From Hutsoniella sourekii ATCC 700629 (GTDB lineage: Bacteria; Bacillota; Bacilli; Lactobacillales; Aerococcaceae): a stretch of DNA of 64,000 nucleotides. Shown piece by piece: positions 21,283 through 47,635 of the stretch. A program made the position numbers and the translations under genes. The first letter of the stretch is position 1. Each line of letters starts with the position of its first letter. The stretch lies in NCBI RefSeq assembly GCF_000518205.1, contig NZ_KI912399.1, positions 82,027 through 146,026 of the forward strand. Direction: 5' to 3'. A model generated the notes under the pieces. That model saw only the letters and a program-made list of their open reading frames with translations, had not been told where the DNA came from and made no database searches.

Positions 21283-21490
21283 AATAAAATCGATAAAAAG
21301 CTTCGAAAGTAACTATTCCCTCAGCTGTAGTGGACCGCATCCAGAGCGATGCGTCAATTGTCCTAATACTACTGCTGAGGGAATAGTTGTTTTTTCGCAA
21401 TGATCGACATTTTTTAAATACAAATAAACGTTACAAATCAAAATGATTGCTTAAGATTAAAGATCGTATGATTAACTTGTCTTAAAGTCG
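21283..21490 (+). repeat. Intergenic structured repeat, copy 1 (compact form)
   Basis: The core is an inverted repeat: 15 bp perfect (21311-21325 with 21374-21388), then GTAGT/ACTAC and GGAC/GTCC pairings. It encloses a hairpin CGCATC/GATGCG. A T-run follows on the plus strand. Shared with copy 2 are the 5' flank ATAAAAAGCTTC, the segments CCCTCAGCTG and AGTGGACCGC, GCGTCAATT and ACTACTGCTGAGGGA, and the 3' flank with GTTACAAATCA. It probably terminates trmB transcription, but the conservation of loops and flanks goes beyond a simple terminator. Confidence 0.85.
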
Positions 21491-42660: not shown

Positions 42661-42675
42661 TTTCTACCTCCATAA

Positions 42676-42776
42676 TTAAAAGCCCCTCCTTTTTTGCGTA
42701 CCAAAAGGAGGGGCTAAGATGGGCAGACTGAGCCCATGTTAAACCGAGTGCCCTTTTTCGCCTCTCTGGACGCAAT
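42676..42776 (-). promoter_or_regulatory. PyrR-regulated attenuator of the pyr operon
   Basis: The minus strand has the PyrR-binding loop TCCAGAGAGGC (about 42760-42770), then a putative antiterminator segment, then a 13-bp terminator stem (42681-42693 with 42703-42715) with T-run. This is the arrangement known from Bacillus pyr operons. Confidence 0.92.
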
Positions 42777-42803
42777 TAAAGGAATTCATCTTAAATTGTC
42801 ATT

Positions 42804-45302: not shown

Positions 45303-45962
45303 ATGCTCTCCAATGAGAATGCACGCTACGTGCTTGAAAAAATTATTGAACTTTATCCAGAAGTTGAGACCGAACTCAACCACCGCAATGATTTCGAACT
45401 TCTGATTGCGGTCATCCTTAGCGCTCAAGCAACCGACCGTGGGGTTAACGGAATTAGTAAGAAACTATTTGAAGATTATCCCACTCCCCAGGCTATGGCC
45501 CAAGCTGACCCTAAAGACTTGGAGCCTTACATTGAACCCATTGGCCTCTATAAGAACAAGTCTAAATATATTCAAGCCTGCGCCCAGGCGCTGGTTGACA
45601 AGTTTGACGGCCAGGTACCTGCCAACCGCAAAGACCTTGAATCCCTACCGGGTGTAGGCCGCAAAACGGCCAGTGTGGTCTTGAGTATTGCCTTTGATGT
45701 ACCAGCCTTTGCTGTAGATACCCATGTCACCCGAGTCTGCAAACGCCACCGGATTGTCGCCCAAAATGCTAGTGTCCGCCAAATTGAAGACCGGGTGACC
45801 TCGCTACTACCACCCGAGCAATGGAAACAGGCCCATCAAGCCTTGGTCCGATTTGGCCGCTATATCTGCACCGCCCGCAAACCAACTTGCGACCAGCACC
45901 CTCAACTATGGACCCCCCCTAACCCCAAGCAAGAAAAGCAACTTCAGGGGCAACATGATTAA
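45303..45962 (+). CDS. nth: Endonuclease III family DNA glycosylase, [4Fe-4S] ligands incomplete
   Basis: Removes oxidised pyrimidines and nicks abasic sites. The 219-residue protein has the HhH motif LESLPGVGRKTASVVLSI with catalytic Lys (GVGRKTA), and AVDTHVTRVCKR with the catalytic Asp. The C-terminal iron-sulfur loop, normally C-x6-C-x2-C-x5-C, reads CTARKPTCDQHPQLW: the third Cys is His and the fourth is missing. No alternative frame restores them. It starts with ATG at 45303 behind AGGAGGTG. The neighbouring repeat follows it. Confidence 0.93.
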   Translation: MLSNENARYVLEKIIELYPEVETELNHRNDFELLIAVILSAQATDRGVNGISKKLFEDYPTPQAMAQADPKDLEPYIEPIGLYKNKSKYIQACAQALVDKFDGQVPANRKDLESLPGVGRKTASVVLSIAFDVPAFAVDTHVTRVCKRHRIVAQNASVRQIEDRVTSLLPPEQWKQAHQALVRFGRYICTARKPTCDQHPQLWTPPNPKQEKQLQGQHD

Positions 45963-45999
45963 TCCCTTTAGGAAAATCAAGAAGCTGTAGAATAAGTTC

Positions 46000-46370
46000 A
46001 AATAGAACTATAAAAAGCTTCAAAAACCAAAGATTCCCTCAGCTGCAGTGGACCGCCTTCAGAGCGCGCACGCTCTTCCGGCGCGTTGCATACTGGGGCT
46101 CTAAGTTGCTAAAGCAACAAGAGTCCCAGCATTAATTGACTACTTAGAGCTTCTTTACGCGTTAGCGTTTAGAAGCTCTTGTGCGTTAGCTGCTCTCCCT
46201 AAACGCCACAGGCGCAAGGGAGAGCTATGCGTCAATTATCCTAAAACTACTGCTGAGGGATTCTTTGGTTTTCTTCGCTATTATCAACTTTTCTTTTTTT
46301 ATACGCAAAACGGTTACAAATCATTGCGATTTGTTTTATTAAAGAAGGTGTTATTGACTTATCTTACAGC
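46000..46370 (+). repeat. Intergenic structured repeat, copy 2 (expanded form with four hairpins)
   Basis: The outer stem is ACCAAAGATTCCCTCAGC (46026-46043) with its complement at 46252-46269 (one T-T mismatch). Inside lie hairpins at 46061-46076 (AGAGCG/CGCTCT), 46093-46129, 46146-46179 and 46192-46225. An 8-bp TAATTGAC/GTCAATTA pairing encloses the last two. Sequence shared with copy 1 covers both ends of the core and the flanks (AAAAAGCTTC upstream, GTTACAAATCA downstream). The bases of the outer stem differ from copy 1 but still pair. Confidence 0.85.
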
Positions 46371-46498
46371 CTCTTGATCTTCATATAGCCTTCTATCCGA
46401 CTCTAGCTTAGACCCATGCAATTACTGGCAAGCAATAGACCTTCACTGGATCCATTTGACGGAAAGCTTGGAGGTCTGTTAAAAACTTGTTCTGATAG

Positions 46499-47635
46499 TT
46501 AGTTAGCTTTTTGAGCGGCCAGGTAATCATCTACCAAGGCGCGGATGTGAATTTGTTGGAGGCGGTAAGATGGCAAGACGCCATGGCTAGCCAGCACCGA
46601 ATAAACGGCTTGGTCTGGCCAGGCAGAGCGGTAGGGCTCAGGAACTTCACTGGCTCGAACTTGATATTGGCCAAGGGGAATGGGACTTGGGATACTTGCC
46701 AACAAGTCGGCCAAAGTCGGCCCCTTGAAAGTCCAAAGATAATAATGGCCAGGGTATTCTCCTTGCAACCATTGGCAGAAGTCTTCTATGTCAACTACTT
46801 GATTTAACCAAGCTCGAAAGTCAGACCAAGCAGGCAATGGGTAGACCAAAGGCTCGAGCTGGCGCAAGTGATTGACCATGACTTGAATTCCATGATCCGA
46901 GACCTGGAAGGTCTGCTCGCCTAAATAGCGCCCCCGACTGCCTGGTTGGACCATAGCCACCCCATTGGGGCCTATAGCTGCACTGGTAAAGTGCTGGTGG
47001 CCACAAATCAAGCCATCGATGGCTGGAAACTGATCCATCAATTGATAGGCCTGGTCTTCAAGGTTAGGGTAATACCACAAATGATGGTGGACCGGATCTT
47101 GGTAAAGTCCCCCATGATAAGCCACTAGAATCAAATCCGCCTGCTCTTCCAACTCCAACAAATAATCGCCCACCACCTCTAATGGTGGCAGTACCGTCAT
47201 TTCAGTAATTAGATGAGGCGCTTGCAACTGGCTGAGGGCTCCAGTCATCAGACCAATCACCCCGACCCTCAGGTCACCAACGGCCTTGATAACATAGGGC
47301 GCAAAGGCTAATTGACCATTTTTATCGAATAAGTTGGCACACACGTAGTCCGCTTCAAGCGCTTGAACTTGATCTTTCAGCCAATCCAAGCCAAAGTCTA
47401 AATCATGGTTTCCTGGAATCATCACGTCATAACCCACTTGATTGGCCAATTCAACAAGAGGCGAAATGCCTCCTTGACTATAGCCAAAGGAAGCATAAGG
47501 GGATCCCACCAAGAAATCCCCATTATCGATCAGTAAGCTAGCTGGCGTCTGGTCTTTTATTTGCTTGATCTGGCCAAATCCTTCTTGGAAATAACCATGA
47601 ACATCTGTTGTCGAAAAGATAGTTGCCTGCTTCAT
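46499..47635 (-). CDS. Cytosolic metallophosphoesterase, 5'-nucleotidase (UshA)-like
   Basis: A 378-residue two-metal phosphoesterase: TTDVHGYF (DxH), IDNGDFLVGSP (GDxxxG), MIPGNHDLDFG (GNHD), VAYHGGLY and CGHQHFTS. The N-terminal metallophosphatase domain covers about 1-250; the C-terminal part (about 270-378) is a short version of the 5'-nucleotidase substrate domain. There is no signal peptide, unlike UshA, so it works in the cytosol. It is the last gene of phnD-phnC-phnE1-phnE2 and starts 8 bases after phnE2. It may release phosphate from the imported compound (inference). Confidence 0.85.
   Translation of the reverse strand: MKQATIFSTTDVHGYFQEGFGQIKQIKDQTPASLLIDNGDFLVGSPYASFGYSQGGISPLVELANQVGYDVMIPGNHDLDFGLDWLKDQVQALEADYVCANLFDKNGQLAFAPYVIKAVGDLRVGVIGLMTGALSQLQAPHLITEMTVLPPLEVVGDYLLELEEQADLILVAYHGGLYQDPVHHHLWYYPNLEDQAYQLMDQFPAIDGLICGHQHFTSAAIGPNGVAMVQPGSRGRYLGEQTFQVSDHGIQVMVNHLRQLEPLVYPLPAWSDFRAWLNQVVDIEDFCQWLQGEYPGHYYLWTFKGPTLADLLASIPSPIPLGQYQVRASEVPEPYRSAWPDQAVYSVLASHGVLPSYRLQQIHIRALVDDYLAAQKAN

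Follow-up and report, generated by a model that had tools for sequence, protein, structure and literature searches.

The locus and its secondary structure

Within the window, by which we mean the whole stretch of 64,000 nucleotides of Hutsoniella sourekii DNA that was analysed, a strongly palindromic region lies between two convergent genes, one encoding an endonuclease III-like DNA glycosylase and the other a calcineurin-like phosphoesterase (Table 1). A preliminary description of this DNA had delimited the region as 46026-46269 and presented it as the second copy of a hairpin whose interior had been expanded by about 165 bases, nearly all of them folded into four consecutive hairpins. When the interval was folded thermodynamically, the plus strand reached -124.4 kcal/mol (shuffled sequences -74.2 ± 5.1; z = -9.89; 0 of 200 as good) and the minus strand -130.3 kcal/mol (shuffled sequences -76.3 ± 4.4; z = -12.18). 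The fold is far beyond chance on both strands. The minimum-energy structure contained the outer stem, all four hairpins where they had been placed, and the TAATTGAC/GTCAATTA stem that encloses the last two of them. The extra length amounted to 160 bases between the conserved arms (226 versus 66 in copy 1), and the interval was indeed free of coding capacity, with no ORF of at least 60 amino acids overlapping it.

The hairpin interior had thus been drawn correctly, but the extent had not. The conservation in an alignment of the copies ran beyond the limits of 46026-46269, and the real unit is 45980-46374, which is bounded by terminal inverted repeats (TIRs). Rfam gave no relevant match for the interval or for the hairpin described below at either gathering or relaxed thresholds, where only sub-threshold chance matches appeared. 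Elsewhere in the window, a PyrR binding-site RNA (RF00515, 57.3 bits) was found at 42675-42786 on the minus strand, in a pyrimidine gene region. The relaxed-threshold scan also turned up one true T-box, at another place on a Clostridia locus.

Table 1. Parts of the element, its smaller copy in the window and the flanking genes (window coordinates).
Feature	Position	Strand	Basis or remark
DNA glycosylase, HhH-GPD, endonuclease III-like (upstream gene)	45303..45962	+	Pfam PF00730; stop 17 bp before the element
Whole MITE-like element	45980..46374	.	395 bp; TIRs and conserved spacing in other copies
Left TIR AGAAGCTGTAGAATAAGT	45980..45997	+	3 mismatches to AGAGGCTGTMAGATAAGT (resident IS1182-family end)
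Outer stem, left arm	46026..46042	+	Fold; compensatory changes in other copies (helix 2)
Hairpin 1	46061..46076	.	Fold; loop houses an extra R1-type hairpin in L031 and L033
Hairpin 2	46088..46134 (stem 46093-46129)	+	Fold; R1-family hairpin
Inner stem, left arm TAATTGAC	46134..46141	+	Fold; A-U/G-C compensation in other copies (helix 7)
Hairpin 3	46146..46179	-	Motif scan; two-tier plan like that of hairpin 2 when the minus strand is read
Hairpin 4	46192..46225	+	Motif scan; two-tier plan (CCC-TAAA-CGCC...GGCG-CA-AGGG)
Inner stem, right arm GTCAATTA	46231..46238	+	Fold
Outer stem, right arm	46253..46269	+	Fold; compensatory changes
Right TIR AGAGGCTGTAAGATAAGT	46357..46374	-	0 mismatches to the IS1182-family end
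Calcineurin-like phosphoesterase (downstream convergent gene)	46499..47635	-	Pfam PF00149
Copy 1, mini form of the element	21308..21391	+	Interior lost; unpaired ATGCGTCAATTG remnant

Copies of the element and variation of its modules

A search of the genome (2.07 Mb in 48 contigs) with a 21-base arm pattern revealed 15 copies of the element, all intergenic, while the reversed control gave none; the pair noticed in the preliminary description is therefore real but represents only two of 15. In intact copies, the inverted repeats AGAGGCTGTMAGATAAGT are separated from the arm by a constant 55 bp on the left side and by about 116 bp on the right. The full-length element had no match in plasmids and phages and occurred in 0 of 59 relatives, and the exact arm pattern was found in none of 84,980 species genomes.

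The length of the core varied from 66 to 269 bp, and the copies differed by whole hairpin modules. The usual short form contains hairpins 1 and 4, whereas in four long copies, including that of the window, hairpins 2 and 3 are added together; in one copy (L036) hairpin 3 is truncated. In two mini forms, copy 1 of the window and L034, the inner stem is reduced to its right arm, ATGCGTCAATTG, and the partner arm is missing. Because this arm persists alone, the mini forms, copy 1 among them, are probably deletion derivatives rather than a simpler ancestor. At one locus (L040, contig C14:41930-42273) the right half of the element occurs a second time beyond a stretch of N, which may be a partial tandem duplication or an artefact of an assembly gap.

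A tree built on the shared arms interleaved long copies with short ones, even inside a group with a support of 1.0, which means that gain, loss or exchange of modules took place more than once. The earlier suggestion that hairpins were inserted stepwise into a hairpin agrees well with these copies, as each module is either complete or lacking at its own fixed place, and the loop of hairpin 1 houses one more R1-type hairpin in L031 and L033 (matches to the R1 model described below at L111 1676-1723 and in L033). Given the interleaving and the deletion-like copy 1, however, the change may have been gain, loss or exchange between copies.

Pairing is maintained among the copies

In an alignment of 11 copies, 96.1% of the cells in the stems pair, and 12 pairs have changed on both sides. 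The number of two-sided cells was 36, compared with 14 ± 2.9 after shuffling (0 of 500 as high); sliding the structure along the alignment gave no more than 9. For example, the outer-stem position 17-305 is G-C, C-G or U-A among the copies, hairpin 2 has changed from C-G to G-C between subfamilies, and three pairs of hairpin 4 show two-sided compensation (helix 10). Thus, the pairing of the stems is kept by compensatory changes.

Hairpin 2 belongs to a widespread hairpin family

When relatives throughout the family Aerococcaceae were searched with the largest copy, other genera matched at hairpin 2 alone. When up to one mismatch was allowed, the 19-base apex of this hairpin, TAAGTTGCTAAAGCAACAA, gave about 55 matches, spread over 26 of the 395 Lactobacillales genomes searched, against a single match for the control. 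A covariance model of the hairpin, termed R1 and built from a hand-picked alignment of 22 sequences, detected members in 29 of the 76 Aerococcaceae genomes searched, a set that includes Facklamia hominis and Jeotgalibaca, and in 13 of the 21 genera. A single genome had as many as 43 copies, and they were often arranged in tandem at a spacing of 115-119 bp. Hairpin 2 of the window, which has a TAAG...CTAAAG...CAA apex and GCATA/CAGCA feet, scored 67.7 bits (E = 1e-18) with this model, its sequence being among those used for building it. The counterpart of hairpin 3 in L031 gave a weak match on the minus strand (18.6 bits, E = 0.0046), and the window's own hairpin 3 was not reported by the model.

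In a sample taken across the phylum, R1 hairpins were present in 7 of 249 genomes, our own genome counted. Five of these seven belong to one Clostridia-like family, in which nested palindromes roughly 300 bp long enclose the hairpin, and in two Clostridia MAGs from rabbit gut it lies within a dispersed palindromic repeat. Four loci of one Clostridia-like family (L252, L254, L255, L256) carried such palindromes around the R1 hairpin, with GC-rich stems and a common neighbouring hairpin. Three loci of F. hominis (L112, L117 and L120 of genome G074) consisted of tandem multi-hairpin arrays with units of about 110-170 bp; these units are bounded by AGAGTGCGA and GAGCACGTTTT, their outer stems differ yet remain complementary, and each holds R1 or other hairpins. 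In the genome studied here, seven of the eight R1 hits were inside copies of the element and the remaining one was solitary, adjoining a tRNA gene. R1-type hairpins abut tRNA genes at L183, L246 and L257 (the last at contig C23:30709-30755 of our genome), in three genomes altogether, which might reflect a preference for tRNA ends. The hairpin had no match in plasmids, and no description of its sequence was found in the part of the literature covered, so the family is apparently undescribed.

The hairpin has a length of 47 nt and follows the plan GYRTA - stem - TAA - stem - TRAA - stem - A - stem - CA. Among 65 distinct hits, the unpaired positions, that is, the G-Y-R-T-A foot, the TAA bulge, the TRAA loop, the A bulge and the CA foot, were about 85-98% conserved. 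The alignment of these hits contained 227 two-sided cells, compared with 71 ± 8.5 after shuffling and at most 51 with the structure slid, although the 65 rows had been fitted to the R1 model and this figure leans towards it. As the alignment behind the model was hand-picked and the 65-row alignment model-fitted, safer and less biased evidence is provided by 36 distinct, unselected apex loci. Their lower stems differ in sequence but pair at 4.9 of 8 positions, as opposed to 3.48 ± 0.21 with reshuffled partners.

The ends of the element match resident IS1182-family elements

The 18-bp TIR pattern, searched with up to two mismatches, was present at 29 genomic sites, including the ends of IS1182-type elements, and its reversed control at none. 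Since the ends match those of resident IS1182-family elements (NF033551), many of which lie at contig breaks, the sequence 45980-46374 is best read as an IS1182-type MITE. In keeping with this, its TIRs correspond to an autonomous-type element of the same genome, its length is below 600 bp, and it is devoid of ORFs of at least 60 amino acids. Against this reading count the three mismatches in the window copy's left TIR and the decayed ends of several copies. The best copies of the IS1182 ORFs in this genome were split or carried stops and others were broken at contig ends; no intact transposase could be read from them, and none scored over the curated cut-off.

In 13 of the 15 copies, an end lies at most 30 bp from the stop codon of an ORF reading towards it, and the same was true for 7 of 13 IS1182 ends tested. 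This is the expected pattern, as IS1272, a member of the IS1182 family, is directed to terminator stem-loops and takes their place without duplicating the target (PMC4923244, PMC5678879); short intergenic regions alone could, however, produce much of this closeness. The window copy is flanked by GAAAATCA and TGATCTTC, which are complementary at 7 of 8 positions, as a partly replaced stem-loop would leave them, but over nine copies the flank complementarity of 35 against 29.9 expected was not significant (p = 0.09). Resident IS1182 elements (L098-L109, at contig ends) had a strong hairpin just inside their ends beside the TIR, which may be an insulating terminator. The string GGCTGTAAG is common to the IS1182 end and some hairpin stems, possibly by coincidence.

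For the complete element, IS1182 is a plausible mover. At the same time, IS1182 transposases were present in 9 of 12 genomes with at least five hairpins and absent from G064, G071 and G084; because these three are rich in hairpins, IS1182 does not explain the hairpin family overall.

Proposed origin and alternative explanations

We consider an IS1182-mobilised modular MITE with an embedded REP-like hairpin module to be the best explanation of the element, and a reasonably probable one. The element would be a non-autonomous MITE spread by an IS1182-family transposase recognising the 18-bp ends, and the window copy would have landed just past the end of the upstream gene. Insertion would have aimed at a stem-loop or taken the place of one. 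The interior of the element would consist of hairpin modules, each of which may be present, absent or truncated, and selection or structure-dependent copying would hold the stems paired while their sequence drifts. At least one of the modules, hairpin 2, would represent an older, widespread REP-like family moving among intergenic sites, and R1 hairpins may sometimes lodge within other hairpins, giving rise to the hairpin-in-hairpin appearance.

The conserved unpaired bases and covarying paired ones are also what would be seen in a structured non-coding RNA, acting in cis as a 3' UTR or as a free RNA, with loops that bind a protein or a small molecule; the fold is very stable, and an RNA with several functional loops had been raised in the preliminary description. 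However, both strands fold about equally well, no promoter above chance was found, Rfam offered no match, and R1 hairpins show no strand preference relative to the neighbouring genes (++ at 10 and -- at 14 of the 44 sites tabulated, with none within an ORF). Together with a copy number ranging from 0 to 43 among related genomes, where tandem arrays also occur, this neutrality points to a mobile DNA repeat instead of a transcribed regulator read from one strand, and makes the RNA explanation rather improbable. As a mobile repeat, the hairpin has the architecture of REPs, with a foot tag, an imperfect palindrome with a conserved bulge and an intergenic location. Its mover could be a Y1 (HUH) transposase that recognises the 5' foot together with the bulges on single-stranded DNA, in the way that TnpA-REP recognises GTAG-tagged REPs. 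Yet the foot is GYRTA, not GTAG or CGTC, and the Y1_Tnp domain (PF01797, RAYT/IS200) had no hits in our genome or in the five richest ones (G003, G022, G063, G064, G071), so we hold a Y1-driven origin to be doubtful. We tentatively propose that the 47-nt hairpin may be a new widespread class of mobile palindromes in Bacillota that is read via its unpaired bases, moves without Y1 transposases and builds composites by lodging in hairpins.

Two further explanations were considered. The element begins 17 bp past the end of one gene and is flanked by convergent genes, and 15 of the 44 tabulated sites are convergent as opposed to 5 divergent; this would fit a bidirectional terminator or a stabiliser of mRNA ends serving convergent neighbours. 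No terminator-like stem with a T-run was found, gene ends are also where insertions are best tolerated, and such a function leaves the TIRs, the copy number and the modules unexplained; we regard it as unlikely. Passive growth, in which template switching during replication extends and corrects palindromes and pairing is a by-product of copying rather than of selection or transposition, would yield both compensatory changes and hairpin loss, of which the remnant of hairpin 3 in L036 and the mini copies L028 and L034 could be examples. It accounts neither for unpaired bases conserved in common by several genera nor for dispersal to new intergenic sites, and hence appears to be an explanation of low probability. 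The IS1182-mobilised modular MITE remains our preferred reading.

Comparison with known repeats

REP and BOX repeats shape the intergenic DNA of many bacteria, and a dedicated mobiliser has been assigned to some of them only, such as the GTAG-tagged REPs. With its occurrence in 13 genera of one family and in Clostridia, and with its richest genomes lacking Y1 transposases, the R1 family allows a direct test of what recognises and mobilises hairpins of this kind, and the nested R1 structures offer a natural series for how composite repeats grow. Palindromic MITEs of the ERIC/Correia type are likewise imperfect palindromic intergenic repeats, a likeness of kind. Internal insertions are present in ERIC copies. 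Sites resembling attC were dropped as a candidate identity because the R-box core appears to be missing.

The BOX elements of Streptococcus pneumoniae and S. suis are small intergenic MITE-like repeats with TIRs and strong RNA or DNA secondary structure, in which, as here, the outer modules pair with each other and the inner modules may be absent or present in multiple copies (PMC3049150). Judged from that description rather than by alignment, their sequence is different; moreover, the modules here are single two-tier hairpins, one of which also occurs outside the element in many genera. With IS1182/IS1272 the element shares TIRs common with resident elements, a position near stop codons where terminators lie, and no evident target duplication (PMC5678879, PMC4923244), but it is non-autonomous and transposase-less, and its insertion by stem-loop replacement is putative (p = 0.09 in the flank test).

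Like the R1 hairpins, GTAG and CGTC REPs are tagged, bulged intergenic palindromes that occur singly or in arrays, and the CGTC class has no known dedicated transposase (PMC3733652, PMC8266576). TnpA-REP reads the foot tag in single-stranded DNA and in E. coli also needs the unpaired bulge (PMC8266576). The R1 hairpins differ in their GYRTA foot, TAA and A bulges and TRAA loop, in their occurrence in Bacillota, in their covarying stems and in a host without a Y1 transposase. The element is BOX-like in its modular design and REP-like in its hairpin anatomy, and is not a GTAG or CGTC REP by either tag or transposase.
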